Shown here piece by piece: positions 2,805 to 58,100 of a stretch of DNA of 64,000 bases. The notes under the pieces were generated by a model. That model made no database searches. It worked only from the letters and a program-made list of their open reading frames with translations, and had not been told where the DNA came from. Every line of letters begins with the position of its first letter. Position 1 is the stretch's first letter. The position numbers were made by a program, and so were the translations under genes. Source of the stretch: Romanomermis culicivorax (Eukaryota > Nematoda > Enoplea > Mermithida > Mermithidae); contig CAWUHX010000039.1 in NCBI GenBank assembly GCA_963922205.1, positions 1 to 64,000 on the forward strand. Direction: 5' to 3'.

Positions 2805-4912
2805 CAGTGGTTTTTTGTGCACAGACATTTGTGCCAATTGGCACAGAGAGCCAAAAAAATTTGTGTCAAATGGCACATAAAAAATTTTTTCACCTCAAAA
2901 ATACGCTGAAAATCCTTAAAAAGTTTTATGTCAAAAACAGGTTTTTTTAGGCCAATTAGGAGCCATGGCTCCTAAAAATTCTGACTGGCTTCTAAAAATT
3001 CAGAGGCACAAGCCGAATTGGCTAGTAAAAATTAGAGCCTAACGATTCTTTTAATAAGGTGAGTTTCCTATCTGGAGATGCATTGCTATGCACTTTAATA
3101 AAGAAATACTAAAAATTTTCCGCACTTCGCACCAGATTTCAAATCATCTATGATTCTTGGTATCATTTCTCTTGTGCGGTTGGAAAATGTTGGCCTAGCT
3201 TAGGTCTATAGCTTTTAAACATCAGCATGTTATGGATGAATATTTGACCTTGTATTGCTTTCTAACATATTTGACGAAAACCTAGATCATTTTCACAAAA
3301 TCGTTTTGTGGTCCTTTAGAATTTTCGACTTTCATGAACATAACTTTTTGCATTTGGAAAATGATTAAGACATCATCAGCATAGAAAAGTGGCAGACCTT
3401 CTATCTGAAAAAGCCATTCAAATTCTCTGTTGCTTGCCTAATTTTTTAATTTTAGTTTGCCTGACTGAAAACACATTGAATTCACTGAAAAATTAGACCT
3501 TTCATGCAGGAAATAGATATTAAAAATACTCATTTTCCAACGTTATAGAATATCAAAATCCAAAATTTTCTTCTGGTCCTAAGCGCTGGCATTGATTTCT
3601 GATATCCAAGTCCGAAGTAAAATACCTACCACACTTTTTATGCCTTATATGTTTGAAAACAATCACGAATAATTATGATTGGTATAAATACTGGCTCCAG
3701 ATATATTAGATCGAAAATGATAGAGAAACTTTTGAACGCTTCCGCCAACTAAATGGTGAAAACATCGTGATCGGTCATCAGCAGTTGCAGTAGAATGGGT
3801 TGAAAAATGCGTTTTCGGCCTGGAAATCAAAATTTTTCGGCGCTGGGCGCCGAACAAGTTACTGTAGCTAGCCTTATGATTTTTCCTTCAAAACTCAGGA
3901 AAGTCAGTTCTAACAGTCTGGAACTAACATGAAGTGAATGAAATACAAGAGAAGTGATTTTGCATCATTTTTATGATGAAACGAAGCGAATTTATCAATT
4001 TTAGTGTGATCAACTAAAAATGTGCAGCCAAATTTTTCCGTTTGCAAAAAAAACCTGACGATTGATTTGAATAATGACTGATCTAATATGTGATCATTGT
4101 TATTCTTTGTTTGATTGAGTATGTATTCAAAATGATTGATCTGTTGGGCTTCTACTGTGATTTTGAAGAGCGTTTTTGAATAAATTTGTTGAAAGAAACA
4201 TTGTTTATCAGGGTTGGCGGGCATTGGGTTTTTGGGTTGATGGGTTAATAAAACTTTAGATATGTTGCATTTGCTTTTCTTTAATTCAGATCCACAATTG
4301 TGAAATGAAAAAACCCTGATTAAACCCAGAAAAACCCATGAAAAAACCCAAATTCGAAATTTTGGAAATGTTTTTTTCCCAACCCTGGCTGCGAGAATTC
4401 AGACATTTTTATAGAATTTGTCGGGCAGTCAATATTTGTGTTTTGACTTTCTTTTATATTGACTTTCTTTCTAAAACCGATGTAAATATTAATTCAACGA
4501 TGTCTATAATTGCTTTCTCCTGATAGTCCCGTCGCGTAAATTTTTTGTTGAAAAATTGTGCCAACAAAACAATGTTAATTTTTCTGTTCGAATGAAACAC
4601 CAAATTTCGGTTCCGAATCACCACTGAATGAATAAGGGGAGGAAGTTAACGATTTCTACTCATTATCAGTCATTCTCAATCTCCAAGTCTGTTGCGATCA
4701 TACAAACAGAATTCGCTCGCGTTCTAGACAAATAAAAGTAATATTAGAAGACTAGGCGCGAAGCGCCTCGAAAATTTTGCTTTTTCAGTCCCTAAGATAA
4801 CTAAAAATCAAGGAAATTCAGTTTTAAAAAAGTCAAAAAATTGTGCCAATTAACTTTTTGTGCATTCCAATTTTTTTGCGCCAAAAACCATACCTTGGCA
4901 CAAAAACCACTG
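2805..4912 (+). mobile_element. Non-autonomous hAT-like element, GTGCC-motif family (copy 1)
   Basis: Left end CAGTGGTTTTTTGTGC; right end GGCACAAAAACCACTG. The flanking 8-mers TGATAAAC and GGATAATC look like a decayed TSD (6 of 8 match). Subterminal copies of GTGCC, and its palindrome GTGCCAATTGGCAC, occur at both ends. The 3' half (about 4540-4830) aligns with 32090-32340 in the 764-bp copy of the same family. No transposase frame was seen. The element carries an internal insertion at 4209-4387 and a GGCGCGAAGCGCC palindrome at about 4755. Confidence 0.7.
4209..4387 (+). mobile_element. Short element with CAGGGTTGG ends, nested in the GTGCC element
   Basis: Begins CAGGGTTGG and ends CCCAACCCTG. 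Both halves carry repeats of a GGGTTTTT/AAAAACCC motif in inverted orientation, the layout expected of a small hAT-type element. The paralogous host sequence near 31920 continues across the insertion. No clean TSD is visible. Confidence 0.5.
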
Positions 4913-5484: not shown

Positions 5485-5682
5485 CAGTGTTTTTTTTGTG
5501 CCAAAACATGGTTTTTGGCACAAAAAAATTTGGAATGGCACAAAAAATTTTGAGCGTTTGTGCCAATTGGCACAAAATTTTTTATTGGTCAAACACTAAA
5601 TTCCCTTGATTTTTAGACGTTTCAGGAGCGGAAAAAGCAAAAAATTTTCGGCGCTTCGCGCCGAATCAATGTATACAATATT

Positions 5683-6325: not shown

Positions 6326-7113
6326 TAGGGCTGTTTCGATCAGAGAATTTTAGTAATTTCGAGTTCGAGTTTGGTCTTTTTGCTTTTCCGAGTTCGAGTT
6401 CGAGTTTAAAAATTGTTCCGAGTCGAGTTCGAGTAATTCACTATTGTATATAAGCGTTCATTTTGTTACATAATGCCAGTCAATATTATTATGCACCTGG
6501 TCTGGTACAACTGAACTACATAGAACTGTTTAGCATATGTCATAGTTACTATAGTCTGTTTTTTATAAAATGCTTCCAAATAGAAAATTGACACAAATCA
6601 GTATCGTCGTCAAAATCGTTTACAAAGAGTTCTTACTGTAAAATTTTTCACTCAAAAAATTGTTAAAGGTTAGGTTAGTATGCTCACAAATTTCTATTCC
6701 TCTGTGATATATTGTTTATCAGAAAATCGTGAAAATCTGAAATACTACTTACTTTCCACTTTCATTATTTGGAAGCATTTCAGAAAAACAGACTATAGGT
6801 ATAAAATTTTATGCAGTCACTATTTGTGTCATACTTGCAGGTTGAAGCAGATCGTATTTTGATAATGAAAAATGTAGTTTGTTAGATGAATAAAATGTTT
6901 AGGAAATTATGTTACTTATGACATATCTTTATCTTAAACACTAAGCAGGATTTCTTAATTCCATTATATTTTAAAGTTTAAACTCGAAAAGAACTCGAAA
7001 TAATGGTTGAAAAAAATCGAGTTCGAGTTTTAAATTTCGAAGTTTTCGAGCTCGAGTTGCCAAAATTGTCGAGTTTTAATCGAGTTCGAGTTCGAGTACT
7101 CGAAACAGCCCTA
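6326..7113 (+). mobile_element. Non-autonomous hAT element with CGAGTT motif arrays
   Basis: Perfect 8-bp TSD TATACGAT at 6318-6325 and 7114-7121. Perfect terminal repeats TAGGGCTGTTTCGA / TCGAAACAGCCCTA. Both ends carry arrays of CGAGTTCGAG (about 6360-6435 and 6985-7100). Length is 788 bp with no transposase. TAGGG-type ends plus an 8-bp duplication are diagnostic of hAT. Confidence 0.88.
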
Positions 7114-7629: not shown

Positions 7630-7899
7630 GTGTCGTCCACAGTTTTTTTTCCTCGAAGATTTTTTCACATGAGAACCGGACCCAGAATTTTTTTACTCAT
7701 TTTCCAAAAAATTTCCAGATTTTTAAAAACGTTTATAATGTGTCTACGGATGCTTGAAACCTGCAAAAATGAGGAAAAGAATTGAGAAAATTCTGGTTAT
7801 GTTAGCCAAAATGAGCTGATGAAGAATATATTGCGTTCTGCAGGAGCAGATAAAGCAGTTTAACGATAGAGTTCTCATGGATTAATCGGCTATTAGCAT

Positions 7900-9010
7900 T
7901 TCTGTGGTTCCGATTAGAATTATCTAATTTTATTTAGTTCTTGATCCGGCGCGGAGCGCCGGAAAAATTTGTGGATTTTCACCTTCTAAAACGATGAAAA
8001 ATGAATCTTCACAATGTTGTGAAATAAATTAGAATCAAACTGATGAAGTGTAATTTTTTCTTCATTCCACTGGCGCGAAGCGCCGGAAAAATTTTCGAGT
8101 TTTTATATTCTAAAACGTTGGAAAATAAATCTCTCTAACAGATATTCATGAACATAAGTTCTAAAATCACAGTCTAGAATGATGTCTACAATTTCCATTT
8201 CCAATTAACGCAAAAGTCCATGTTGCAACCGTTTGCAAGATTACTAGTATCGAGAGAAAAATTTAGAGAATTGATGAAAAATCTCTATTTTCAACGAAAT
8301 ACTGACTGTTAAAGATTAGAAAATGAGACCAGCTAGCTTGACTGATAGAAAATGTTGAGCATTAATTAGTTAGTGGAAGTAGATATGCTAACGGCCGCGC
8401 TTGATAAAAAATAATGATGACCGGCACCATGCGCTGGGAAATTTTAGGATTTTCACCTTTTAAAGTCCACCTGAATGCACCTTTTCTGTTTTTAATACAA
8501 GTCAGTATTTTTCCGCTAAGTGAGATTTTCCATCAATCTTTACAATTTTCTCCTATCGTCTCGCTCGATACGCCGTTTTTCCTCAAATAAGGTCTTTTGA
8601 GCAAAAAAAATTGGAAATTAAGAAAAAATTTGGGCATGGTTCTCATTTAGGAAAAATCATTGTTAGTTTTGTATCAGGCGCAGCCGCTAGCATATCTACT
8701 CCCACTTACTAATTAAACTTCGACAATTTCTATCAATTGAATATTTCATCTCTTTTTTTACTAGTTAATAGTCAATATTTTGCTGATAATTGAAATTTTG
8801 CATCACTTTTTAAAATTTTGTTCTCTCGCTTCATTTACAATCCGAACGTTTTGAAACGTGAATCTTCGCAATCCGCGTAGAAAAACGATAAAAATGTCAT
8901 TCTGAGACTGTACTTTTAGAGCTTCTATCCAGAAATAATTTTTACGAGCATTCGTTTCCCAACATTCTGGATCACAAAAATCCGAAAATTTTTAAGGTGC
9001 CGCGCGTCTG
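7900..9010. repeat. Dispersed repeat with inverted halves and GGCGCGAAGCGCC palindromes
   Basis: The left half (about 7905-8440) matches 41085-41590, including CCGGCGCGGAGCGCCGG, GCGAAGCGCCGG and AGATATGCTAACGGC. The right half (about 8685-9005) is an inverted version (GCTAGCATATCTACTCCCAC). No gene within. Boundaries are approximate. Confidence 0.55.
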
Positions 9011-20596: not shown

Positions 20597-20604
20597 CCCG
20601 GCAG

Positions 20605-21624
20605 CACTGTTTTTTTTTTTCCCCCGGGCCTTTTCCCCAAATGGGGAAAGAGGCCAAAATTTTTTTCCCCATTTTCCCGGAGTCGTTTTTTTCGCCTAAA
20701 AATGCTCACAGACGCTTTATTTAGGTGTTTTTGAGCCTTTTCAAGCCTCCTGGTGTTTTTAAACCCGTTAATTCATTAAAATTGAGGAAAAAATTGAAAT
20801 TTTCGAGTTCAAAGTTTAATCTACAAGCATTGGAACAAATTTTCAAGCAAACTATCCAAAAGCATAATGACTTTGAGAATTTCATGAGAAATCGATGGTT
20901 AAGTTCTTTATGATGACAAGTGAGAACCCAAAATGAATGTTAATTTTTCCGGCGCGAAGCGCCGGAAAAATTTTTTTGGTATTGATATTCTGCGACGCTG
21001 GAAACAATTTTCCGAACATTTATTTCAAGAATTAGATTTGAATTTTGTGTTCAAAAGTCGTAATTTCTAGAATTTTACTTGGAAAAATTTTAAAACCAGT
21101 ATAATTTATTTGTAAACTCTGATACTTGGTCGAAAATATATGAGTAAGCAGAGTATAAATTTCCGAAAGATATTTCCATGAAGCGTTTGAATTGATTTTA
21201 CATTAGAAGAGAAATAATCGCATCAAAAAGCTTAGAGACTTGACGTTATTGATCTTTCTCAAAAGGAAAAAATGCGAATCTTCATTAAATATCATGATAA
21301 AATATTGAAGATTACCAATAAAAACATGAGATAATACGTTCAAGATGATGAAAACTATTATAGACTATATGATAAATGAAAGTAGACGTGCTAAAAGCCG
21401 CGCCTGAGCTAAGTAATGCATAATAATGATTATTAAAGTTATAATCGGCGCGAAGCGCCGGAAAATTTTGAGATTATAACCTTCTAAAATGCACCAAAAT
21501 GCATCTTTTCTGTATCCGATCCCCAAAATTTTCTTCCCCAAATGGGGAAAGAGCCCAAAATTTTTTTCCCCTTTCCGAATTTTTTTTCCCGAAAAAGCAC
21601 GATTTGGGGGGAAAAAAAACAGTG
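20605..21624 (+). mobile_element. CACTG-family hAT-like element, CCCC-motif type (complete)
   Basis: Perfect 8-bp TSD CCCGGCAG at 20597-20604 and 21625-21632. Ends are CACTGTTTTTTTTTTCCC and GGGGAAAAAAAACAGTG. Both ends carry TTCCCC motifs and the palindrome TTCCCCAAATGGGGAA. Two CCGGCGCGAAGCGCCGG palindromes flank the interior (about 20950 and 21447). 1020 bp, no transposase. Confidence 0.9.
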
Positions 21625-21644
21625 CCCGGCAGTGGCGGACGTCA

Positions 21645-21900
21645 ATACTGAAGTATAATATTGGTTACTTTTATTTGTCTAGAATCTGAGAGAATTGTAT
21701 TCGAATAGTTTTTTGTATGATCGTGACAAACTTTGACATTGTCAATGACTGAAAAATGAATAGAAATGGTTAAACTTAACTTCCACTGTTCATTGTGATT
21801 AGAAACCGAAATTTTTATTTCTGGTGTTTGATTCGGACAGAAAAATTGACCTTGTTGCAACAATATTTCTGCCAAAAATTTACGAGACGTGACTTTCGGC
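21645..21900 (-). mobile_element. Interior fragment of a GTGCC-motif element
   Basis: Reverse complement matches 32090-32340: ACTTTTATTTGTCTAGAA, CACTGTTCATTG-like block, and GAAATTTTTATTTCTGGTGT then TTGATTCGGAC. No termini. Confidence 0.5.
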
Positions 21901-22016
21901 TTAGTTTTTATTCAGGAGAAAGCAATTATAGACATCCCCAATTTCACTTCACCGTTATTTTCCCTCAAATCGTGCTTTCTGGGGGGAAAAATTTTTGGAC
22001 TCTTTCCCCATTTGGG

Positions 22017-22440
22017 CAGGCCCGTATTTAGAGGGGGAAATAACCCCCCTAATTTTTTTTTGAAAAATATTTTCTGCAATATCATTGTATTGTATTTGTA
22101 ATGTAAAGTGGGGTGACTTTGATCAGGGACGACTTTGATCGGAGTATGGCATTTGATAACTATTAGAGATCAGCGGGTCATTTTTGCTGTGTAAACAGCA
22201 CCCCTAAATTTTTTTTAGAAAAAAATTTTCAGCAATATCATTGTACTTATACATCACAATTCCCAAATTAAATTATTGCATACTTTTCGTCAAACATAAA
22301 ATTTAGCCACTAATCAAGGCACATATAAACTAAATAAGTCGTCTCCGAATGATTTTGATTTTCTTTTTATTCGGTAAATTCTTAAAGGATTTTGGAAAAT
22401 TCCCCCCCCCCCTTTTTTGAAAATCCTGGATACGGGTATG
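22017..22440 (+). mobile_element. CAGGCCCGT-ended element (short copy)
   Basis: Starts CAGGCCCGTATTTAG and ends TCCTGGATACGGGTATG, with long C runs inside the right end. It gives the empty-site reference (CACATATAAACTAAATAAG near 22319) for the 4.76-kb insertion in the longer sister copy. Confidence 0.65.
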
Positions 22441-22505
22441 GTCCAAATCCTAAAATTTTTCGGCGTTCCGGTTATAAGATACATAATCTATCTACCTCCA
22501 GGGCG

Positions 22506-22642
22506 CATACCTGTAAGAGGTCCGACTAGTTGGGGGGGGGGGGTCGAAAAAAGTCGAAATCTTTCCCAAAAAAGGCCAAAAAACATACACTTTTTTGCAA
22601 ATTTTTTTCAAACTGGGGGGGGTCCCCAAATTACAGGTTATG
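22506..22642 (+). mobile_element. CATACCTGTA-family MITE (short copy)
   Basis: Starts CATACCTGTAAGAGG, then TCCGACTAGTTGGGG. Interior has AAAAAGTCGAAATC and TTTTTTTCAAACTGGG. Ends TTACAGGTTATG. 137 bp; no clear TSD. Confidence 0.65.
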
Positions 22643-25600
22643 TATTTAGTCTGTAATAGTTTTCATCATCTTAAACGTATTTATCGAATGTTTTAATTTT
22701 ATCCTGCGATTTAAAGAAGATCAGGCCCGTTTTTAGGGGGGAAGGGGGGGGGGAATTCCCCCCCCCCTAAATTTTTTTACTTTAAAAATTTCAGCAATAT
22801 CGTTGTACTTACACATCACAATTCTCAAATTAAATCTGCATCATAAAATGGAGAATAGTGAAAATTTTCCGGCGCGAAGCGCCGGACTTTTAATATTTGA
22901 AAATTTTTCTATATTATTCCAATGCGCAGTTAGAAAATGTCATTCTAGCTAATTATCAACATATTATAGATAAAGGTATGATCCTGTGTTGTTTTTTGGC
23001 GAATTTAAGGAATAGAAAGATTTTTCTCGGTTATTTTCCCAAATTTTTTTGCGATTTTCACAAAAATTGTGACACGTGTGTGATTAAAACATTTTTAGTC
23101 CTGGTCGAAATTCTTGGCGGTTGAAGAATTAAAATTCTTCGTTGCTTTCGTAGTTTTTAAATTGTAGTTTGCCCGACTGAAAATACATGGAACTTGACTG
23201 AAAAATTTAACCTTCTGTCTACAAAATAAGGAGTGAAAAAATTCATTTTTTTAGGCTTAGGCTTAGGGTACAGCAGCTGCGCCCGAAGGGCGCAACGCTG
23301 TTGAGGCTCTTCCAAATGAATAATTTGAAGAACGATGAAGAAGAAAAGGTGGACGAATATGGGGACATCATTGCATAAGTGATGCAAATTTTTTCCCATA
23401 ACTTCGCTTTGGCGCTTTTCCCATGCATAATTTCACTTGTTCTTTCTTTCCTTCATCATGAAAACCCCCAAAACCGGCGTCAGAGAAATTTCGGCGTGGC
23501 CATCACCATCCTTAAAAATTCTAAAAAATTTCCGGCGCTACGCACCGAACAAGTTAATTTATATCAACCTTTTTCATTTTCTCTCCAAAATTCAGAAAAT
23601 TGGGTTTTGAAAGTTGAAAACCGACGTAAATCGAATGAAATACAAGAAAGCTAGCTTCTGATATTTTATTCGATAAGCTAATTTATTGATTTCAGAGCGC
23701 GCAACCACAAATCTATCAGTGCAACTGGAATTTTTCTCCAAGTTGCACATGGCAACCTAGCCTGTGCGAAAAAACCTGAATCCAAGCACACATAAACTAA
23801 CTGAAAATAAGGGCAGTGGTTATTCAGCGCCCGGCGCTGAATAACCAAGCATGTTAATTTTTTTATGCGGCGCTGGGCGCTGAATAACATTTTATCATTA
23901 CGTTGGTTATTCAGCGCCCGGTTTTATTATGTTACAATATACTTCTCTCGTTGCACCTGTAGAGTTTATGTTTCATCAAAATATGAGTTCCATCATCCAT
24001 AATACGTTGCTCCGTAGTAAGTACGCGTCAGATTCGGTTAAACCCCTCTGAACTGCGATCAAACTATGGCTGCTCACTTGCAGTCGGTCCGGTTAAGAAT
24101 GAATTTTTTGACAGCTTACAATTGTTTACCATTACAATTGGATTGTTTCGAGTGATTTGTGGTTAAGGAATATGATTTTAATCTAATCCTCATTAGTTTC
24201 GTTGCAATATATACAACGCCAGTCTATTTCTAGAAGTCAGATTCTAATATAACGTTTCTACTACTGTGACTATAACTCGCAAAGTTTTCACCCCTATTAG
24301 GTCTTTGGACTTTTGCTGGAGTCTCGAAAATGATTGAACACGAATTGCAATCTGCTTAGAAATAAAGAATTGGCTAGTCAAAAACAGTTTCTCATCAAGC
24401 ATACGATTTTTATCATTTGGTGGGTGTACAGCGAAGCTTGAAAATCGTGAAACAAGTCATGAAAAAATTTCACAGAGCACACATTCCAAGTGGTGGCGAT
24501 CTTTCTGTTCATCAAGTTCTGCTAGCAGCAACCTAGAAGTTCAACAGCGTTATTTTGCACTGTATTAGGTCAGGAGCTCAGGATTACTTGCTTGTTCACT
24601 TGCACAAAACACTCCTAGAGTAGTTCTTTTTCAACAGGTTCAGGATTAATTCTATTCCAACAAAGCAAATTCTTATAGTTTTTTCGCTTTTTGTGTTTTA
24701 TATGTCTCGAATGCGAATATTTTGTTCACATGACGGAAACATTAGATTCTTGACAATCACATGAAGTAACCACTAGAAAAAATGGTCAAAGTATCATATA
24801 TACATGGAAAATAGCTCAACTGGCAACTACCAGACAGACTAGTTCTCGGCATCAGACAAGGGGCTAGATGTACCGAACGCATCTGAGCCTTTCTATTGAT
24901 TCAGTGGCGTAAAAATTGACCAAAACCAAACTCTGCACCACGGAACTGACACACACTGCACCACAAAAAATAATAATGAACTGAACTAATCGAATGGCGT
25001 TTTCTCTTGCATCTACTTCAATTTATAGGTACCACTGAACCTTAAGAAGAGTTCAGGGCACTCTATAAAGGTTTTGCTTGGACCAAAATGTAGCGGTTCA
25101 GTGATACTTTATTGTGCAGATTTCCAGTTGTCACTTAGATAATTGTTTTCATGTACCCAAGCCAATTAGCTATAGAAATTTCACAATTCATGCACTAACA
25201 ACCAGAGTATGTGTAGAGCAATGTTCGAAAAACTACTCACTATTTCCCACTTCGTTGGCCAATTTCAGATGCTCACGTTAGAAAACGCACCAATATTGTT
25301 TTTCGTGCGTCGATAATTAACATTTTCAGCTTTTTTAAACATTTTTCCCAAATAAGCATAATTTCGAAAAACAGCGGATTTTCCAATTCCAAGAATTACA
25401 ACATAGATTCCTGCACTAGGTGCCAGAAAACTGTAATCCCGACTAATTGTATTTGTGCTTTCTAAAAACATACCACAAAAATCTTCGTACGGAGCGAAAT
25501 ATGTTTGTCTCCTACAAAAGCCAGTGGTTCTGTACAGCTGTCAAATTTTTCACTTTCATATATCAAAATCATTTATGCAATAGATACATTTTCAAACCTG

Positions 25601-26773
25601 TAGACACGATAAACATACTTTTTTCATACTGACCACGAACTTTAAAAAAATATCCAATAGCAGTTCTTCCAAAAGTGTCCGCTTACTCATTTCCTTCAAA
25701 TTGGCTTACCCATTATGACACTCCCCAAAGTTTTGTGTACCTGTGGCCATTTTTGTCTCATTTCACCAGTAAGTCATTCTTACTGGGGTGGTAAACGAAT
25801 ACCCAAACATGAGACCGCGGTAATATCCCGTTTCCCCCTATGGGGTGCTCTGCTTAAAGCCTTACAGTAGATGTATTTCGCTTGAATAATGTAGGGAGAA
25901 AAAATTTCTTGTGGATTTGAAACAGGATTACAGAGAATTTTAGTTTACGGATAATAATAATTTTCTAAGTAACTTTATCTGCAAGGGAAGATTTACTGAC
26001 CTTCGCAAGTCGTGTTATGCAAAATTTTAGTTTTCCATTCATGAGATTAAAATGCACTTTAACATTCTTCACGTGATAAGAAATACATTATTACATTCTT
26101 TTTACATGTTATAAACAAGAATGTGAACACTACTGAAAAACTAGAAAATCAACCTTTCTAAAAGTCGTTGATGCAAGCGGACAACGACTCAACCACCGTA
26201 CTTGTGAATTGTAAAAGTAGCCCCAGATCAAAAATTGAGTCAGGGCCAGTTTGATTGGAAAACTGGCTAACAGTACAGAGAAAAAAATTATGTTCAACAT
26301 GATAATTTCATTTTTATTTTGTTCAAAAGTGTCCAGACTGTCCCATAGGGAGGGGTACGAGGGGGTATTACCCCTACCCGAAGTTCTAAGAATTGATCAC
26401 TGGGTAGCTAGTTTTGTCAAAACTGGTGCATTTATATTGGACATTTAGCTATACATTGCCGCCGCAAATTATTAAATTTACTACTATCTGAAAATCTGAC
26501 CTTGGGAGCTCTTGATAGACCAGAGGTCCCCAAGGTTGAAAATTTAGGTAGGGGTAAAATCTTAAATTTTAAGGGTAGTACTTGAAATATGCCGTGACCT
26601 TTTTTTTGCTCTCAACTTTTTGCTAAGGAGGGGGAGTTGTAGTTTCTCGAACTTACAAAAATGATTAGTGCCCCTACTTATGCTTTTTACAGTCAAAAAA
26701 CATTTACTTCAACTCCATTTTCCAGCTCCCAATCATGCAGCTTTAGTGCACTAATTATACGTACAGAATAGTC

Positions 26774-26995
26774 ACCAAACATTGTTTCAACCAGCATCTT
26801 CAGCATTATGGGCTTATCTCATCACTGATTAGGCTTGGAACAGTGCTTCCAATTGAGAGTCCTGATGCTGAATGTGGCTTTAGTATTATTAATCCCATTA
26901 CACTATGAACTACGAGTTTGAAACCAAGTACCACTCCTGATCCACGTCAACTGACCTCACATGTCTCAACTCATAGCAGGAAAGTATGCCACAGC
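26774..26995 (+). pseudogene. hAT transposase C-terminal (dimerisation) remnant
   Basis: The plus-strand frame reads LPIESPDAECGFSIIN followed shortly by a stop and further residues. This resembles the conserved C-terminal hAT dimerisation signature (L-P-x-S-x-A-D-x-E-R-G-F-S-x-x-N). The stop codon and missing upstream frame mark it as broken. It shows what kind of transposase once occupied this element or an insertion in it. Confidence 0.5.
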
Positions 26996-28108
26996 TTGGG
27001 TAACCATATGCGCACAGAAGACCCAACGCAGAAGCGGGGAAAAGGAAAGGAGAGCATGAAGAGGCAGAATTTTAAGAACATAATGTTTTTCTTCCCAAGG
27101 GGCGATTTTTTTATTAATCACATATACATAACGCATTATTTCATCTCCCAATTATATTTATAATGATTTCCTACAGGTACTATATATTAATGTGCTGATA
27201 TCCTTTCCTAAAAATCGTTATATGGCACAGAAGTTGCATACTTTCCCATTATAATTTGCTCAGTAAATGTGTCAAAAAGCGCAGTGAGTAATTCCTCAGA
27301 ATCACACATTCTGCAATTTTTCTCGAATTAGTATAACCTACTGGGGAGAGGATGAAGTCTACCAAAATTTTTTGCTATAGTGAGCTGTTTTTATGGGGGT
27401 AGTAAATGAATTTCCAAATCTAAGAGGGCCCCCCATACCCGCCCATGGGGTGCTCTGTGATAGACTCTGAAATAAGCCCGACAATCAACTCTGATTGTAC
27501 TTTGTCTATTTTCTTCGAAATAAATATACTACAGCCGGTTTTCTAAGCTAGTTCGGCTCGGGAAAGACGGAGAGGATTTGAGAACCAACCGAATTTCTGT
27601 ATGGACTGACTACAGATAAGCCCATGTTGTTTTTGCAGGTATATGCGATTGTTATGATAGCATGCTCTTTCATGTTAGAGTCATGCGCAGTGTTGGACAA
27701 TGAGAGAAGTTCATGCTGGTTGAAGAATCCAGATTTTCGGTTGGGGGCCAGATCTCTGATCTTCGGTTGTCTATCATCAATCCAAAATTAATGTGATTTT
27801 TACCGTTTTGCCCATTTCTAGCTGATTTTTTTTGTTATCCAGTTGGTTGACCGCAGTGTCTGGCTGATTGAAAACATCAGTACATCGCCCATGCCTAGTC
27901 ATTTGCTACATGGTCATCTCAGTTCATTTTGACATACACTATTCAAAGCTCACACATGAAAATCCACAAAATTAAATTATCAAATTAAGCCTCTTCCTTG
28001 AACTTCAGTCTTGAGAATTATGTTGTTACGTCTTATAATCACTCATGTCAACGTTTCATGAATGCGGAAATCCATAGGCAACTCCTAGAATAGTTCAGGA
28101 ATCACTGG

Positions 28109-28303
28109 CATACCAGTAATTGTGGGAGAGTTGTCGAGGACCTCCACCCCCAACTTATTCAACCCTATACCCAACCCCCCCCCCCCCGCACACTTGGAAA
28201 AAAAGTGGCTTTTTGGTAAAATTTTCGAAATTTTATGCGTTTTTACTACCCTCACACCCAAATTTTGGGATCCCCCGAACGGGTCGGACCTCTTACAGGT
28301 ATG
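28109..28303 (+). mobile_element. CATACCTGTA-family MITE with perfect TSD
   Basis: Perfect 8-bp duplication ATCACTGG at 28101-28108 and 28304-28311. Starts CATACCAGTAATTG and ends GGACCTCTTACAGGTATG. 195 bp; nested in the 4.76-kb element. Confidence 0.85.
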
Positions 28304-28687
28304 ATCACTGGTGCAAGCGGTTCCTATTTCTTATGACTTTCGTTCACTATTATCGCTGATAAGGTTAGTATTTTCAGCATATAATAATTTAAGTCTCGAT
28401 TACTGTAGTTATCATCGCCGGGCGCTGAATTACCGTATGTCATGCCACTGGTTATTCAGCGCCCGGCGCTGAATAAAAAAAATCAATGCTTGGTTATGCA
28501 GCGCCGGGCGCTGAATAAAAAAATAATGAAATACTGTTATAGAGCGCCGGGCGCTGCATAGCGCCTGCCGAAAATAAGTCGTATTTACTGCAAAACTGAT
28601 TTTCTTTTTACTCAGTAAATTCTAAAAAATGTTGGAAAATTCCCCCCCCCCCTTTTTTTGAAAATCCTGGATACGGGTATAATGAAG

Positions 28688-30143
28688 TAGGGATCGGCCG
28701 AGGGTAAAATAAAAAGCCTCGGCCGAGCCGAGGATTTTTTTAACATGATATTATATTAATACACTGGTCACTGGTAATACTAATAAGAGACTTCTTTACT
28801 CTTGCCTTTATGATCTTCATCAAGTAATTCAAAACATAAAAAAATTTATTGTAAAAAATTTATTGTAAAAGTGTAACACTAAATAGGTAAATTAACGCAA
28901 AGATGTCTTCTATGCAAATTTTGTAGAATTTATGGAGTCAACCCGTCACTTTGATGCACTGTTTTTTTTCCACGAACTTTTTTCCACAAATGTGGAAAGG
29001 GGTCAAATTTTTTTTCCACATGTGGAAAAAATTTTTTTTTCGTCTTAAAATCCGTTTTTTGGCTTAAAAATGCTCACAGACGCTTTATCGCACTGTTTTT
29101 GAGCTTTTTCAAGCCTTCCGGTGTATTTAGAGAAGTTAATTCATTAAAATTGGAGAAAAAATTGAAATGTTCGACCTAAAAGCCTAATCTACAAGCGTTG
29201 TTGAACAATTTTTCTAGCAAACTATCCAAGAGCATAATTGACTTGAATTACACAAGAAATCAATGGTCAAGTCCTCTATGATGACAAGTGAAAGCCCAAA
29301 AAAGATGGTACTTTCCGGCGCAAAGCGCCGGAAATTTTTTTGGGTATATTGACATTCTGGGATGCTGGAAAATCATTTTTCCGAACATTATTTCAAGAAT
29401 TAGATTCCAATTTAGTGTTCAAGAGTCGTAATTTCTAGAATTTTACTTGAAAAATTTTAAAATCTGTAATTTATTTGTAAACTCTCATGAACTTGGTCGA
29501 AAATATATGAGTAAGAAAAGTATAACTTTCCGAAAGATATTTCCAAGAAGCTTTTGAATTGATTTTACGTTAGCAACGAAATAATCGCATCATAAATCCT
29601 AGAGACTTGACGTGTATTCATCTTTCTCAAAAATAAAAAATGCGAATCTTCATTAAATATTATGATAAAATGTTGAAGATAACCAATTAAAACATGAGAT
29701 ACTACGTTTAAGATGATGAAAACTATTATAGATTAAGTGATAAATGAAAGTAGACATGATAAAAGCCGCGCCTGAGCTACTTAATGAATAATGATGATTA
29801 TTAAAGTTATAACCGGCGCGAAGCGCCGGAAAATTTAGGGATTTGGACCTCCTAAAATGCACCAAAATGCATCTTTTCAATATGAAAACCCCAAATTTTT
29901 CTTCCACATTTGTGGAAAGACCTCAAAAATTTTTTCCACATTCCAGATTTTTTTTCCACATTATAGTGCAAATGTGGAAAAAAACAGTGCTTTGATGCAG
30001 TAAACATTTTACATCAAAAATATCCTGCTTGCTTTAGAGTTGCAAATAATCCTCGGCCATTTTTGATCGACACCCTCGGCCGAGGCCGAGGGTGGCCGAG
30101 GGTACCAATCCTCGGCCGAGGCCGAGCCCTCGGCCGATCCCTA
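28688..30143 (+). mobile_element. Composite hAT element, copy 1 (TAGGGATCGGCCGAGG ends)
   Basis: Perfect 8-bp TSD TAATGAAG at 28680-28687 and 30144-30151. Terminal repeats are TAGGGATCGGCCGAGG / CCTCGGCCGATCCCTA. CCTCGGCC motif arrays lie at both ends. A 1033-bp CACTG-family element is nested inside (28957-29989), leaving about 415 bp of outer element. A near-identical inverted copy is at 54175-55647. Confidence 0.92.
28957..29989 (+). mobile_element. CACTG-family hAT-like element, CCAC-motif type (nested)
   Basis: Perfect 8-bp TSD CTTTGATG at 28949-28956 and 29990-29997. Ends are CACTGTTTTTTTTCCAC and TGTGGAAAAAAACAGTG. Same interior as 20605-21624, but every subterminal CCCC motif is CCAC here. 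Two CCGGCGC(G/A)AAGCGCCGG palindromes (about 29314 and 29813). Confidence 0.92.
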
Positions 30144-30954
30144 TAATGAAGATCCGCATTTTTCTATTCAGTATTCAGATATTTTCCGAGAAAGATTAAT
30201 ACGTCAAGTCTCTAAACTTTTTGAAGTGATTACTTCTTTCTTAACGTAAAATCAATTAAAAAGCTTCATGGGAGTAGTTTTTGGAAATTTCTACTTTCCT
30301 TATTCATATATTTTTGGTCAAGTTCATGAAAGTTTACGAATAAATTAGATACTGGTTTCAAAATTTTTCAAATAATAAAATTCTATAAATTTCAAAATTT
30401 GAACAGAAAATTCAAATGTAATTCTTAAAATAAATGTTTGAAAAATTGATTTTCCAGCGTCGCGAAATGTCAATCCCATTTTGAGCTCCCAGTTGTCATA
30501 CTTAACCGTCGATGTCCAATAATGTAATTGAAAGTCACTATGCTCTTGGATATTTTGCTGAAAAATCTCCTGCACAATGCCTGTAGATTAGACTTCAAAC
30601 TCGAAAATTTCAATTTTTTCCTCAATTTTAATGAATGAACGACTCTAAAAACACCAGATGGTTTGAAAAACCCAAAAACACTTACATAAAACGTCAATGA
30701 GTAGTTATAGAAGAAAAAACGACTTCGGGGAAAATAGGGAAAAAATTTTGGCCTCTTTCCTCATTTGAGGAAGAGGCCGGCGGGAAAAAAAGAAACAGTG
30801 CTGAATTTATTTATATCGGTGTTAAGAAGAAAGCCGAGGCCGAAAATTGAAGAAAAATATAAAATGCCCTGAAGAGTTCTATAAAAATATCTGAATTCTC
30901 GCAGCATCCGATTTCTTTCCGAATCGTATAAACTGCCTTCTTGGTCAGACGTGG

Positions 30955-31330
30955 TTAAGATGAAATAGAGTTGGCACGATTTTTATGCAAATTATTGCGG
31001 CGAGAGTATCTTTAGTTATGTTTTCATCAAACTTTTCGCATAAAACTTTTTAAACGTTTTCAGTATGTTTTTAGCATGGAAAAAATTTTTTGTGCCGCTG
31101 GCACAAATTTTTTTTGGCCCTTCAGGTCATACCTGTAAGGGGTCCGACCAGTTGGGTGCGGTGGGGGTAAACCCGAAATTCTGGGGTGGGGGATCGAAAA
31201 AAGTCGAAAATTTTTCCAAAGAAGGGCACTTTTTTGCCCATTTTTTCTAATTCTTCTAAGTCAGGGGGTTGGGTACAGGGTTGGTCAAGTTGGGGGTGGC
31301 TGCCCCTTATGCTTCAGGCTTATGCAGAAT
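30955..31330 (-). mobile_element. Left-end fragment of a GTGCC-motif element
   Basis: Reverse complement matches the left part of 31693-32456: ATCAAACTTTTCGCATAAAA, TTTCAGTATGTTTTTAG and GTGCCGCTGGCACAAA. Interrupted by the MITE at 31128-31311. Confidence 0.55.
31128..31311 (+). mobile_element. CATACCTGTA-family MITE
   Basis: Flanked by CTTCAGGT (31120-31127) and CTTCAGGC (31312-31319), 7 of 8 matching. Starts CATACCTGTAAGGGGTCCG; the right end has decayed to CCCCTTATG. Confidence 0.75.
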
Positions 31331-31692
31331 AAAACTTAGTGATGTTGCATTTGCATTGTTTGGGTGCTTTGCTACGCTCTTAGACCTAAGCAATAGTATG
31401 AGTGTATAGCTGTCGGATTATCTTGCAAGTATCGGCTTTAGCTCACCACAATGCGATGAATGTGTAAGTACTGTAAATATCTCAAAGGAAAATCATTCAA
31501 GGTCAAATTTCTTGTCCTTTCTGCGTTTTCTGCTCGGAATTTTTAACTAGGATTCCCGTACTGGCGCCCGACAATTTAATTTTGTTTTTCAAGTCATCTA
31601 CGATAAATTTAGGTATAACTCAACGCTACACATTCTGCATTCTAGCCGCCTCCTCTCTATCATCAGGCTAAAATGAAAATGGCAGCTAGAAG

Positions 31693-32456
31693 CAGTGTTT
31701 TTTTGTGCACGGAAATTTGTGCCAATTGCACAAAAAATAGTTTTCCCCCTAAAAACATACTGAAAACATTTAAAAAGTTTTATGCCAAAAGTTTGATGAA
31801 ATTAAGATACTTTTACCCCACTAATTTGCATAAAAATCGTTCCTAATCTTTTTTTTTATCCACGTCAGTGAGATAAGAAAAACTGATCGAAAAAACGGTT
31901 TACACGATTCGAAAGAAACCGAATTTTGCGAGAATTGAGATATTTTTATTGAATTTGTCAGGAAATCTATATTTTGCTTTAATTTTCGGCTGTCTTCCTA
32001 ACAACGATGTAATAAATTAACTTAACTATGTTTACTATTGCTTTCTCCTGAAGAAAACTAGTCAAAAGTTGCATAAATTTTAGGTCGAAAAATTGCGCCA
32101 ACTATTTCAATTTTTCTCTTTGAATCAAACACCAAAAATAAAAATTTCGGTTACCTGTACGACCACTGAATGGACAGAAGAAGTTCAAGATTGCTATTCA
32201 TTCACCGGTAATGGACAAGCTATAGCTGCAGTGATACAAATATACTATTCAAAAATAATTCGCTCGCGTTCGAGGCAAATGAAAGTAGTTGAATACTTTT
32301 GCACTCTCAGCCCCTAAAATAATCACTTAAAATCAAGGAAATTTGGGCCTGGACCAGCAAAAAGATTTGTGCCAATTGGCACAAACGCTGAAAAGTTTTT
32401 GTGCCATTCCAAATTTATTTGTGCCAAAAACCATGTTTTGGCACAAAAAAATACTG
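31693..32456 (+). mobile_element. GTGCC-motif hAT-like element (compact copy, 764 bp)
   Basis: Left end CAGTGTTTTTTTGTGC, right end GGCACAAAAAAATACTG. Flanks GCTAGAAG and ACTAGAAA (6 of 8) suggest a decayed TSD. Palindromes GTGCCAATTGCAC (left) and GTGCCAATTGGCAC (right). It is the clearest reference for the family. Confidence 0.78.
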
Positions 32457-52100: not shown

Positions 52101-55100
52101 TAGAAAGAAAACAATTATCAAGAACGCATACAAATTTTCAAAGAATTCCATCCGCACATCATCGGAAAAGGCGGCGTCAACATTAAAAAGGTAAACATTA
52201 ACTTCAGGGTGTCCAGCCATACTGGATAAAAAAAATCAGAGAAAAAAGTTATACCTGGTAAACCTCGAGAATTCAGGGAATTTCGTTGAATTCTTATGAT
52301 GTTGTAGTATATAGTTGTTTTTATTGCAAGATACATAAGGTCGAATCATACATGTAATGGGGTTCCGAGGTCTGGCGAGGAGGGGGGGGGTTGGGCGACT
52401 TTTTTGGAGCTGGGGGTCAGTAATTTCCCAAATTTTGGGGGGAGAGGTCTCTCAAGGAAAAAAAATCAATTTTTTCTCAAAAAAGTTCGAAAAATTGTTT
52501 AAACAATAGTAATTTTTTCTAAAAAGACCGAAAAAATGTGAGAAAATTCACATTTTTGACCATTTTTTCTTCAAAAATTGACATTTTTCATCAAAAAATT
52601 GAAATTTTTCTGTATTCTCTGACCGAAGGTATGGGGGTACCAACGGCTACCATATGACTAGCTATAGGATTGGAAAATCCTGGGGGCGGTCGCCCAATGG
52701 CTGGCTATATGGTCGAGGATTTCTGGAGGGGGGTTCCCATAACACTCCCCCCAATTACATGTATGGCTCGAACTATTGTAAGATAAGCCAAATGCCCGTT
52801 TTCGAAGTTCAGAATCTCAGAATTTTCCAACGCTTTGTTTTAGTGCATCTGTAGTTCTGTTTCATGTATAGATATTTGTTTTTTTATCATTAATTAGGAT
52901 CTCAACTTTTTTCTGATTTCATTATGTTTGCTAACTTTTTTGTAACGTTACCATTGATGAACATCAAATAGCTTACTTGAACGAATTGTCTAAAAAGTTC
53001 AAAAAATTACTCAATCCAAAAAATGTTTAGGCACAGTAGGTCATTTGGCTAAAAATAACTTTGATAGAAAAACTTTGTTAACATGATGAGGTCTAGAATA
53101 AGCAGGTTTTACTATTGTACTGTTATTTAATTGAATTTTTGATTTTCCGGTAACATTACATTCAAATCTTTAATACAATTGACTGTTTTGGGCAGAAGTT
53201 CATCATTTTCCTTGTATCTTTTTTTCGGATTATTACTACCAAAATTTGGTTGGTGGCAGATTTAGTTGAAATTGTGATGAGCATTAAGCCATTAGATTTT
53301 CAGTACACTGTGTTGTAGATACATGAAATTATTCGTCTGTATTATGATTTCTACATCATCAGCAAAAGTAAGCGTTTTAACATTAAAGTTGTCTTCCGAT
53401 AAATGACAAATGTTTGTTATGTAGCGTAGGAATAAAACAGGTTCTAAACGTTTCCTTGAAGTACGAGTACACCACTCAAAACGCAAATGTCAACTGTTTA
53501 TGTGCAAGTTAGAATAATGAATACTTATTGCAGATATGAGATAAGTATTCATTACTTGCACTGCACATGAACATATCAGATTTTTTAGCAGAAACGTGAT
53601 CTAGAAAATCTTCTATACGTGAGAAGAAATTAGGAACTTTTACACAATTTTGGAGAGAGGTTCGGGCCATAAACACTGATTCTCGGCTAAAGGAAGCTGA
53701 CAGAAAACTGAAACACAATTATTTGAAGGAAAATAGACAGCAAATGAAATGAAAAAAATGCGTCAGCTGAAATTAAATTGTTGAAAGATAAAGTATGTAA
53801 AACAGAAGAAAATTGAAAAAAAGAAAAAATTGTTGAGCTTCCTTACAACTCGCTATCAATTTAATAAAATTTTTGTATGATCATGTCTTCTATATAATCA
53901 TTACGCGGTTAACAGAAGTTGGTGCTCGTCGAAGAATCTCAATTTTTATTTGGTGCCTGGCTTCTGCATTTTACATGCCTTTTTCAATTTTACATAAATT
54001 TAGTCCAAACAGCAGATGATCTGATATCTGCTGTTTGGATCAAATCTATGTAAAATACCTGATTTCTAACTGATATTTTTGGTTTCCTAGTTGGTTTGAT
54101 GACACCACCTAGGTGCTTCAAGACATCAGCACGTTCACGTCACTCTCTGGTATATACAATTTTACCATTTTATGTAGGGATCGGCCGAGGGCTCGGCCTC
54201 GGCCTCGGCCGAGGATTGGTACCCTCGGCCACCCTCGGCCTCGGCCGAGGGTGTCGATCAAAACTGGCCGAGGCCGAGGATTATTTGCAACTCTAAAGCA
54301 AGTAGGATATTTTTGATGTAAAATGTTTACTGCATCAAAGCACTGTTTTTTCCACATTTGCACTATAATGTGGAAAAAAAATCTGGAATGTGGAAAAAAA
54401 TTTTGAGGTCTTTCCACAAATGTGGAAGAAAAATTTGGGGTTTTCATATTGAAAAGATGCATTTTGGTGCATTTTAGGAGGTCCAAATCCCTAAATTTTC
54501 CGGCGCTTCGCGCTGGTTATAACTTTAATAATCATCATTATTCATTAAGTAGCTCAGGCGCGGCTTTTATCATGTCTACTTTCATTTATCACTTAATCTA
54601 TAATAGTTTTCATCATCTTAAACGTAGTATCTCATGTTTTAATTGGTTATCTTCAACATTTTATCATAATATTTAATGAAGATTCGCATTTTTTCTTTTT
54701 GAGAAAGATGAATACACGTCAAGTCTCTAGGATTTATGATGCGATTATTTCTTTGCTAACGTAAAATCAATTCAAAAGCTTCTTGGAAATATCTTTCGGA
54801 AAGTTATACTTTTCTTACTCATATATTTTCGACCAAGTTCATGAGAGTTTACAAATAAATTACAGATTTTAAAATTTTTCAAGTAGAATTCTAGAAATTA
54901 CGACTCTTGAACACTAAATTGGAATCTAATTCTTGAAATAATGTTCGGAAAAATGATTTTCCAGCATCCCAGAATGTCAATATACCCAAAAAAATTTCCG
55001 GCGCTTTGCGCCGGAAAGTACCATCTTTTTTGGGCTTTCACTTGTCATCATAGAGGACTTGACCATTGATTTCTTGTGTAATTCAAGTCGATTATGCTCT

Positions 55101-58100
55101 TGGATAGTTTGCTAGAAAAATTGTTCAAAAACGCTTGTAGATTAGGCTTTTAGGTCGAACATTTCAATTTTTCTCCAATTTTAATGAATTAACTTCTCTA
55201 AATACACCGGAAGGCTTGAAAAAGCTCAAAAACAGTGCGATAAAGCGTCTGTGAGCATTTTTAAGCCAAAAAAACGGATTTTAAGACGAAAAAAAATTTT
55301 TTCCACATGTGGAAAAAAAATTTGACCCCTTTCCACATTTGTGGAAAAAAGTTCGTGGAAAAAAAACAGTGCATCAAAGTGACGGGTTGACTCCATAAAT
55401 TCTACAAAATTTGCATAGAAGACATCTTTGCGTTAATTTACCTATTTAGTGTTACACTTTTACAATAAATTTTTTACAATAAATTTTTTTATGTTTTGAA
55501 TTACTTGATGAAGATCATAAAGGCAAGAGTAAAGAAGTCTCTTATTAGTATTACCAGTGACCAGTGTATTAATATAATATCATGTTAAAAAAATCCTCGG
55601 CCTCGGCCGAGGCCGAGGCTTTTTATTTTACCCTCGGCCGATCCCTAATTTTATGTAATAATTATTGATTTTTGCTCTCTCCGAAAAACCCGAAAAATGT
55701 CGTGGAAAAGTCAGTGAATTTCGTTTTGTAAAACTGTTCGACCAAATGTCGGAAAATACTCAAAAAAATCATTCATCCTTATTAGATAGAAATGTTGATT
55801 ATTTTTCTAGATTCGCGACGAAACTGACACGAAGATTGAATTACCGCTAGAAAACAGCACTAATGACGTCATTACAGTAACAGGAAAACGCGTGAACGTC
55901 GACAAGGCCAAAGAAATGTTGAGGAAATTAGAAGGCGAATTAGTAAGCCAGATTTTAATTCTCATGAAAATTTTTCTCTGTTTTTTAGGAGTTATTTTTT
56001 ATACATTTTTTGATGTCTTGTTTTTGGTATTTCTTTACCTACTTATATTTTCTGCAGAATTTAATTGAATATTCTTCGGTATTCTCGAAAATCAGTTTAT
56101 CTTTCTGTGCAGTTGTATCATATGTAATATTTTTTGACACAATGCGTGCAACACGTAGAAAATACGAAAAAAATAAATTTTTGAAGTGAATTTGAATGAT
56201 TCTTTAGGCTAGCGTCATTACGGCCGAGATTAGCGTGCCACACAAAATTCATAGCAGCTTAATCGGCGGTGGCGGCCGCCTAATTCAGCATATTGCTCAA
56301 ACGGAATGCGGTGGTGTACAAATTAAATTTCCGAGTGAAAAAACTCAGTCGGACAAAATTACAATCCGCGGACATAAAGAAGGCGTCGAAAAAGCCAAAA
56401 AAATGTTGACCGATTTGGCCAAAGATCGCGAATTGACCGGATATACGGCCGAAGTTAAAGCCAAGCCGGAACTGTTCCGTTTCTTGATAGGACGAGGCGG
56501 ATCTAAAATTCATAAAGTAAGTTTTGCAGCATAATTACTTAGAATATTCAACCATAAAATCAACAGTCTGAAAATTTTTTGGAGTAAGTTTTTTGTGTCA
56601 ACGACATGTCGTACGGGAATATCACGTCTCAGCTTACTATAGCTAATAATCGCGTCCTCTTATTCGCGTAGTGATGTCAAACCAAGTAGTTATCCATATA
56701 AATCGGCCAAATTCTCTAAATTCGGAGAAAACAGCGTAGATTATGCGGATTTTAAGCTGTGGATAGATCTGATTTCAAAACTAAGGAAATCAAATAAAAA
56801 TGTTTTTTACTTTCGCAATGTTTCTGTGCTCACTGCTCAGCTGAATTTTTTTCCAATACGCTTTCTAATAATAATAACTGTCTAATCACGTCGACTATTG
56901 CTTGAAGTACACTGCACTATATGCTAGATCAACTTTTCTCACACCATTTTTCAATGAATTTGACCGTCTAGTGCGTCTTTTTTTCCGGGGTAATAAATGT
57001 TTTTCAGAGTAGAGGAATTTTTCCCCTCCCATACGTTGTCTTCAAGGTAGAGGTTAATACCTCCATATGTCTGGTAATGATAATATTGCTGTCTGTATTC
57101 AACGTTCGAGCAGTGAGTCAACAGCACAGGAAAATGTTTGTATAGCAGTCAGACAGTCAGAAATCAAATACTTTCGCGAAGAGAATGATTAAAAAATCGA
57201 CGATATAATTTTTCATAGAATTTTAATGGGGTCTTACTATGTATTTTAATCTCTAGAAAAGTTATCTCTCAGTATTCTACGGTACTACATCGGCATGTTT
57301 CGCCTTCAAAAAATTCAAATAATGTTTATTAAATACGTAAATACGTATGGTGCGCTTTCGATTTGTTTACTTATATGAAGTCCATGGACCACAATGAGAT
57401 GGTGTCATCTTTGTACTGACTTATGAGTTTTAGCTGAATTTATATACTGCATTCTAGGGATTCAACGGGTACCCGAACCATTTTCAGCTACCCGAAACGA
57501 ACCTGAATTAATTGCTTCTCAGATACCCAAACCCAAACAATTCGAAATCCACCACCCATTCCGTCCCTAGCATTCACAAGGTATTGCTTTCCAGCTGCGA
57601 GAAAGTAATCCGAAAGTCAAAATTATGCTACCGAGATCAGATGACGCAGATCAAGAAACCATCCACATCGTTGGATGCAAAGAGGACGTCGAGGCAGCTA
57701 AGAAACAGCTCGAATTAATTGTTACGGAATTGGTAAGCATAAAATTTGTCGTATCCTGAATCTCCAAAATTTTTGCGGGACTCACATAGTTTTTTTTATT
57801 GTTGCAAATCTATTCGTATATTTCGAAGAACTCTCCGATTTTAGAATGATTTAACCGAAATACACGTTGATATCGACCCCAGACATCATCGACATTTCGT
57901 CGGAAGAGGCGCCACCGTCATACACGAAGTTCAAGATCAATGCGGAGGTGTAGTCATATCATTCCCTAAACAGAATACCAATTCATCGGCAGTGAGTGTC
58001 AAGGGTGGAAAAGAATGTTGCGAATCGGCCAAAAAACGGTTATTGGAAATTGTGGACGATTTAGTAAGATTCCAGTTGCACAGTACATAGTTCCTTGAAA

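Follow-up and report, generated by a model that had tools for sequence, protein, structure and literature searches.

How a DNA-binding protein and about ten of its sites can change specificity together without loss of function is an open question that touches transposons and transcription factors alike. It is raised by the first 64 kb of contig 39 (CAWUHX010000039.1, positions 1 to 64,000; hereafter the window) in the genome assembly of the mermithid nematode Romanomermis culicivorax (GCA_963922205.1; 359 Mb in 595 contigs). The window contains two non-autonomous elements whose ends carry arrays of a short word, TTCCCC in one (the CCCC element) and TTCCAC in the other (the CCAC element), together with elements whose ends are built on TGTGCC. 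The original prediction, made from the letters of the window, held that these elements share one terminal layout in which only the word, X, differs, and that X has been exchanged as a set. Most of what was observed is borne out, and one part of it proves stronger than first stated. The CCCC and CCAC families differ by the same single letter at every site that they share, and one register is common to unrelated words.

The CCCC element (20605..21624, plus strand, 1020 bp) has TTCCCC sites at its left end (20619..20670) that start at 20619(+), 20633(+), 20643(-) and 20665(+), and at its right end (21534..21613) that start at 21534(+), 21544(-), 21566(+), approximately 21586(+) with one mismatch, and 21608(-). 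The CCAC element (28957..29989, plus strand, 1033 bp) has TTCCAC sites at its left end (28968..29027) that start at 28968(+), 28982(+), 28992(-), 29014(+) and 29022(-), and at its right end (29902..29979) that start at 29902(+), 29912(-), 29934(+), 29954(+) and 29974(-), giving offsets of 0/10/32/52/72 from the first. Both have CACTG/CAGTG tips and are flanked by exact 8-bp duplications, CCCGGCAG for the CCCC element (at 20597-20604 and 21625-21632) and CTTTGATG for the CCAC element. The terminal 110 bp at each end of the CCAC element hold 10 TTCCAC/GTGGAA sites between them, compared with a mean of 0.07 and a maximum of 2 in 10,000 base shuffles, and the interior holds none.

Comparison of the majority consensuses of the two families (13 CCCC and 12 CCAC copies) reveals that the fifth letter of the motif is unlike at all nine shared sites, always C versus A, with the other motif letters identical at 44 of 45 positions (hypergeometric 1.9e-9); the tenth CCAC site has no counterpart in the CCCC element. 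The same uniformity is seen in single copies. The fetched loci and the window hold 27 full-length copies, among them the window's own CCCC copy (L001); two (L025, left tip uncalled, and L049, miscalled tip) were excluded from the consensuses and the per-copy counts, and in the 25 used C is found at 102 of 104 read CCCC-family sites and A at 105 of 106 read CCAC-family sites. Palindromic partners had been noted to change in step, and this holds genome-wide: the pattern TTCC[AC]CAWWTG[GT]GGAA occurs at 4082 places, of which 2638 are A/A, 1397 are C/C and 47 (1.2%) are discordant, where independence of the two halves expects 1852. A scaffold pattern spanning the second and third right-end sites has 2464 matches (reversed control 0) and the letters of these two sites agree in 95 of the 100 matches listed (expected 41.7; maximum 59 in 10,000 shuffles). 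Concerted change of this kind might be mimicked by biased mutation, by hairpin-templated correction of the palindrome or by shared T runs; a hairpin could indeed correct palindrome halves against each other, and the ends are rich in T runs. However, a C/A difference at all nine shared sites with 44 of 45 neighbouring letters unchanged fits no mutation bias known to us, non-palindromic single sites have changed too, and identical offsets under unrelated words (see below) are not a property of T runs. Such an artefact is already disfavoured, and we regard it as very improbable.

The sites also sit in a locked register, which was scored with one mismatch allowed and counted from the first site at the right end and from the tip at the left end. 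Right-end sites lie at 0/10(-)/32/52/72(-) both in the CCAC element and in E3, a TGTGCC element at 31693..32456 (plus strand; site starts 32368(+), 32378(-), 32400(+), 32420(+) and 32440(-)). A single TTAGCC end from elsewhere in the genome (L082) has offsets 0/10/32/52/72 as well, the site at 10 with one mismatch, and in all three ends 16-17 bp separate the start of the last site from the tip. At the left end, offsets 11, 25, 35(-) and 57 are common to the CCAC element and E4, a TGTGCC element of 2108 bp at 2805..4912 (plus strand; offsets 11/25/35(-)/57/67(-), with one mismatch at each of 11 and 57) whose right end is degraded; E3 has left-end sites at 11, 25 and 34(-) and lacks one at 57. 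Other ends are close to this layout: the TTCCTC-type element of L023, considered below, has sites at 11, 26, 56 and 75 on the left and at 0, 31, 51 and 71 on the right, a small element in L068 has TTCCGC sites at left offsets 10, 24, 35(-) and 56, and the CCCC element has right-end sites at 0, 10, 32, 52 (one mismatch) and 74, with a left register displaced by three (14, 28, 38 and 60). Between the second and third right-end sites, the CCAC and TGTGCC spacers are identical at 14 of 15 positions, including seven of the first eight, a score that shuffles reach in 0.25% of cases. The steps between sites are near 1, 3, 5 and 7 helical turns, so that the sites would face one side of the DNA.

The shared terminal layout is thus confirmed: the CCAC element has the same offsets as E3 on the right and as E4 on the left. 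That it could arise from low-complexity A/T runs is ruled out by the identical offsets under unrelated words and by a motif number far above that of shuffles; BLAST of the TGTGCC interior against the interiors of the CACTG elements gave no match. As bounded elements, the four fare differently: the CCCC and CCAC elements are confirmed by their exact duplications, but the duplications of E3 and E4 are imperfect, at 6/8 each by eye. Further end words found in the genome are TTCCTC, TGCAC, CTGCAC, ACAAGCC and TTAGCC. A search for words starting with A or G returned 1465 matches (reversed control 2), and the 30 rows with letters comprised 25 TGTGCC ends and 5 ends of another, GCAC-like type, with no further word. 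Uniformity within a copy, a single-letter difference between families, covarying palindrome halves and a fixed register all support the proposal that X acts as a recognition word.

The sequence between the sites tells a different story from the sites themselves. What is conserved between CCCC and CCAC ends is position, motif core and T runs: end columns outside the motifs are identical at 82 of 119 positions between the consensuses, and once homopolymer runs are removed the end spacers agree at only 13 of 23 positions on the left and 20 of 38 on the right (33 of 61 in total), compared with 735 of 826 in the interior, where windows are 80-96% identical with runs excluded likewise. The fall in identity is sharp at the right end (from 95/106 to 20/38) and more gradual at the left (13/23, 57/71, 63/75). 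The claim that copies of X changed together while the sequence between them did not is consequently correct for X and incorrect for the spacers, whose lower identity makes the ends look older than the interior that they share.

This interior is found between other ends too. A 24-base interior anchor has 8487 genome matches at up to three mismatches (reversed control 0). In the window and 50 anchor loci, which were taken from the first 100 exact matches as listed by contig and are hence a non-random sample, 46 recognised ends comprise 23 CCAC, 11 CCCC, 5 TGCAC, 4 ACAAGCC and 3 CCTC (TTCCTC-type); eight CCCC-like query loci add 8 CCCC ends, which brings the anchor matches with a recognised end to 54 of 70. 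The remaining 16 have no end recognised by pattern, although inspection by eye shows ACAAGCC ends and CTATG-like tips in at least 8. In five ACAAGCC copies approximately 785 bp of interior align to the CCCC consensus with 83-84% identity, and the alignment breaks off on either side. Of four TGCAC copies, three match the same consensus over 611-871 bp (79-82%) and the fourth over no more than 49-60 bp. Different ends around one interior imply that exchange of ends, or conversion of interiors, between families forms part of the pattern. It might conceivably be the whole of it, if CCCC, CCAC and CCTC were distinct end lineages of long standing, each with sites that diverged along with its transposase, and if recombination or gene conversion subsequently exchanged their interiors or made them uniform. 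The low spacer identity beside a well-conserved interior, the sharp boundary at the right end, and the retention of the interior under wholly different ends by the ACAAGCC copies and most TGCAC copies all speak for such a history, but on its own it leaves unexplained why one motif letter should differ while 44 of 45 others are kept, and why mosaic ends occur inside the TTCCTC family. As a complete account we consider it possible but unlikely.

The TTCCTC (CCTC) family is where the order of change becomes visible. Its members have CACCG/CGGTG tips, with a 1023-bp copy flanked by the duplication GTGTCTAT in L023, and their longer aligned pieces are 74-80% identical to the CCCC consensus. Most sites have T; in the right palindrome, however, the first half is TTCCAC in 1006 copies and TTCCTC in 513. 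Among the listed CCTC copies (contigs 1-4) with T at both following sites (n = 45), the palindrome site has A in 21, T in 12 and neither exact string in 12; of 49 listed rows in which the third site has T, 47 were used, the two excluded having CCAC- or CCCC-type spacers. Nine right ends that were read fully give TTCCAC in five, TTCCTC in three and neither in one, and the left palindrome half is CCAC in five of seven CCTC left ends (by eye). These mosaics are the partly converted states predicted by a site-by-site switch, and A probably preceded T in the TTCCTC lineage. A switch of the whole set at once, as first proposed, is not supported in that form, given this site-by-site mosaic and the greater divergence of CCCC and CCAC ends than of their interiors. 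At L024 (566-2597) a CCCC element is nested in a CCTC element, and that CCTC copy is older than the CCCC element inserted into it.

The families to which these ends belong are large. The CCCC query gives 5667 first-look candidates in the genome, and the 40 scored yielded 41 long matches at 94-100% identity, the window copy included. Lengths are 991-1038 bp in 25 copies, and there is no stop-to-stop open reading frame of 150 or more amino acids within the CCCC element (20605-21624) or the CCAC element (28957-29989). The two elements lack coding capacity, are present in high copy number and are uniform in length, and are thus miniature inverted-repeat transposable elements. They also display the 8-bp target-site duplication of the hAT superfamily: duplications are exact (8/8) in 20 of 27 full-length copies from the fetched loci and the window, 17 of them distinct, and in the other seven copies they score 7/8 in three, 6/8 in one and 3/8 in one and are uncallable in two. 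The short terminal inverted repeats of hAT elements are of the CANTG type. The tips here are CACTG...CAGTG in CCCC and CCAC elements and CACCG...CGGTG in the CCTC element of L023, and CANTG-type terminal inverted repeats are accompanied by subterminal repeats near the tips, as in hAT elements. Given the 8-bp duplications, CANTG tips and subterminal arrays, membership of the hAT superfamily is likely, if not closed.

With moderate confidence, we favour the reading that the words are subterminal sites for hAT transposases, and that, site by site, the word follows the specificity of the protein, while the transposase complex fixes the geometry. The elements would be hAT-type miniature elements, and their ends would be arrays of short sites for the BED-finger-like DNA-binding domains of a transposase. 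A multimeric transposase complex would set the geometry of each end, with a palindromic pair followed by single sites that are spaced by two or three helical turns and keep a constant distance to the tip, and the word at each site would be free to change when the specificity of the transposase changed. In the TTCC-N-C families this change would amount to one letter (A, C or T), and sites would convert one by one until nearly all carried the new letter, leaving the unconverted sites that persist in the TTCCTC family. Separately, the interior of approximately 780 bp would have been placed between CCCC, CCAC, TGCAC and ACAAGCC end sets by end exchange or interior conversion; the occurrence of one interior between unlike end sets suggests a passive passenger that has changed drivers. 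The reader of the word would be the BED domain of a hAT transposase, and a selective cause for the change of word is presumed. More tentatively, and in our view with less than even probability, a change in one base-contacting residue in a lineage of hAT transposases may have created mutually incompatible A-, C- and T-channels that the non-autonomous elements followed site by site within an invariant geometry, so that the genome keeps starting, partly converted and finished states.

Several points weigh against the transposase-site reading. An old switch is one possibility, given that identity is lower in the end spacers than in the interior. Because descent links the copies, the counts above show uniformity and inheritance within families and not the frequency of switching, and separate switches may number as few as two. 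The TTCCGC palindrome TTCCGCAWWTGCGGAA, which would carry the fourth letter, has 0 matches in the genome, so that G is not an established channel; TTCCGC sites do occur in the small L068 element, but a TTCC-N-C code that uses all four letters was rejected on this result. The target preference of hAT elements is nTnnnnAn, and here it is weak, as among 17 distinct duplications 11 have T at position 2 and 7 have A at position 7. The right-end repeats of Hermes are not bound by BED domains in the published structure, whereas the elements considered here have arrays at both ends (PMC10368747). Lastly, no hAT gene with matching ends was recognised in the loci read. Searching the genome for the hAT dimerisation domain gave 1837 candidates, of which 150 hits were scored, and 41 loci were read in part (flanks of 1.5 kb were included for 30; another 10 were read as 0.9-kb 3' flanks, and one as a gene region of 4.5 kb); among these 41, no hAT gene was shown to be flanked by CC-type or TGTGCC ends, and the autonomous partners expected of such elements were not identified. 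CC-type, TGCAC or TGTGCC arrays are present in the flanks of L060, L066, L067, L071, L084, L093 and L098, but the first six of these have an array of another word, with its own tip, nearer the domain, and in L098 the flanking array is the left end of an element that starts beyond the gene. No own array was recognised after the domain at L068, L073, L074, L083, L092, L097 and L098, which leaves these seven loci as candidates. The transposase sequence obtained at 30 loci is the dimerisation domain, approximately 80 residues that do not include the BED domain.

Two candidates for an autonomous partner were set aside. On contig 4, two hAT domain hits are followed 2.77 kb downstream by a CCAC end, but the hAT there has its own GGTTCC-like array and a CCTCTG tip approximately 230 bp after the domain (by eye, L091). 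At L089, which has the longest open frame (844 aa), the hAT bears tips of CAGAGCCGTGCC type, as judged by eye, and lacks such an array. Many hAT dimerisation domains of the genome (L059-L088, L090-L099) are followed by family-specific end words, by eye GGATCC, GGATATCC, GGGTCC, GGGTTC, GGTTTC, GGTTCC, GAGTCC and AACCTA, and in several of these arrays a tip-adjacent palindrome varies with the word (GGGTACCC, GAGTACTC, GGTTAACC and GGATATCC, by eye).

Other features of the window include further relatives of these elements. A second CCAC copy (54341..55371, minus strand) is likewise flanked by CTTTGATG; it sits in a larger repeat (28727-29983 versus 54346-55601, 98-99% identity) and is thus not an independent insertion. 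A relative of the CCCC element (30173..30800, minus strand) is 75% identical over its first 675 bases, with no right end matched; its left palindrome, TTCCTCAAATGAGGAA at 30757-30772, is one of the 22 T/T palindromes of TTCC-N-C form in the genome. A decayed relative with a CCTC-type left end (TTTTTTTTCCTCGAAG...) occupies 7638..8500 (plus strand, right boundary approximate), and a TGTGCC right end in inverse orientation at 5485..5616 (minus strand) is 89% identical to that of E3. Inside E4, at 2925-3030, GGAGCC/GGCTCC-like words run beside T runs and are possibly another end code (by eye). A 788-bp hAT-like element at 6326-7113 has tips TAGGGCTG...CAGCCCTA and the exact duplication TATACGAT, with 18 TCGAG/CTCGA words in its two terminal 200-bp segments and none in the middle 388 bp. 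Outside these elements, an open frame at 49489-50127 resembles vigilin KH domains (by eye, with no family search), and a tandem repeat at 13287-13704 (229-bp unit, 1.8 copies) contains two tRNA-Thr(GGT) genes.

The number of copies that share one rigid scaffold runs into thousands (palindromes: 2638 A/A and 1397 C/C; two mosaic states: 1006 and 513 copies), which makes it feasible to reconstruct the order in which sites were converted and to search for the matching change in protein. The families are also a possible source of transposon end sets that do not cross-react. In Ac/Ds and other hATs, each autonomous family has its own subterminal word, which is common to its non-autonomous copies. 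A single register with words swapped between close relatives was not found in a literature search that largely excluded subscription journals.

Three systems bear comparison with the arrays described here. The BED domains of the hAT transposase Hermes bind precisely phased subterminal repeats, a palindromic pair being bound cooperatively, and a shift of 1 bp impairs cleavage; short repeats near the tips, a palindromic pair, phasing relative to the tip and 8-bp duplications are all shared with the elements of R. culicivorax (PMC10368747). The Hermes repeats are arranged differently at the two ends, whereas here the arrays of the two ends resemble each other, and identical offsets carry different words in several families. 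On the protein side, related hAT BED proteins vary widely in motif, and the motifs of those hAT-encoded proteins that were tested match the subterminal regions of their own hATs (PMC8097297). The likeness to the hAT-derived CGG-binding proteins (CGGBP) and their parent hATs lies in related BED domains with different motifs; that work concerns proteins, mostly across species, whereas the present comparison concerns DNA and is confined to one genome, where it resolves single letters and includes mosaics.

Among published systems, the closest parallel to concerted motif change is VANDAL/VANC of Arabidopsis, in which each element has many copies of a short motif, motif types differ by one letter between subfamilies, and the motifs coevolve with the binding protein (PMC5735166). 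This likeness lends some support to a further explanation, in which X is bound by a host repressor or anti-silencing factor and a change of letter would let the elements escape or recruit it, as in the case of VANC motifs. VANC targets, however, are tandem arrays in non-coding regions that turn over by repeat formation, and VANDAL motifs have spread in this way (PMC5735166), whereas the sites described here are single, stand at fixed offsets from the ends with no tandem arrays, and differ by one letter. They are terminal, partly palindromic and in register with the tip, as expected of sites for a transposase complex, and a host factor appears to us an improbable reader. VANDAL and the elements of R. 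culicivorax thus resemble one another in the single-letter divergence of repeated motifs, and differ in how those motifs are laid out.

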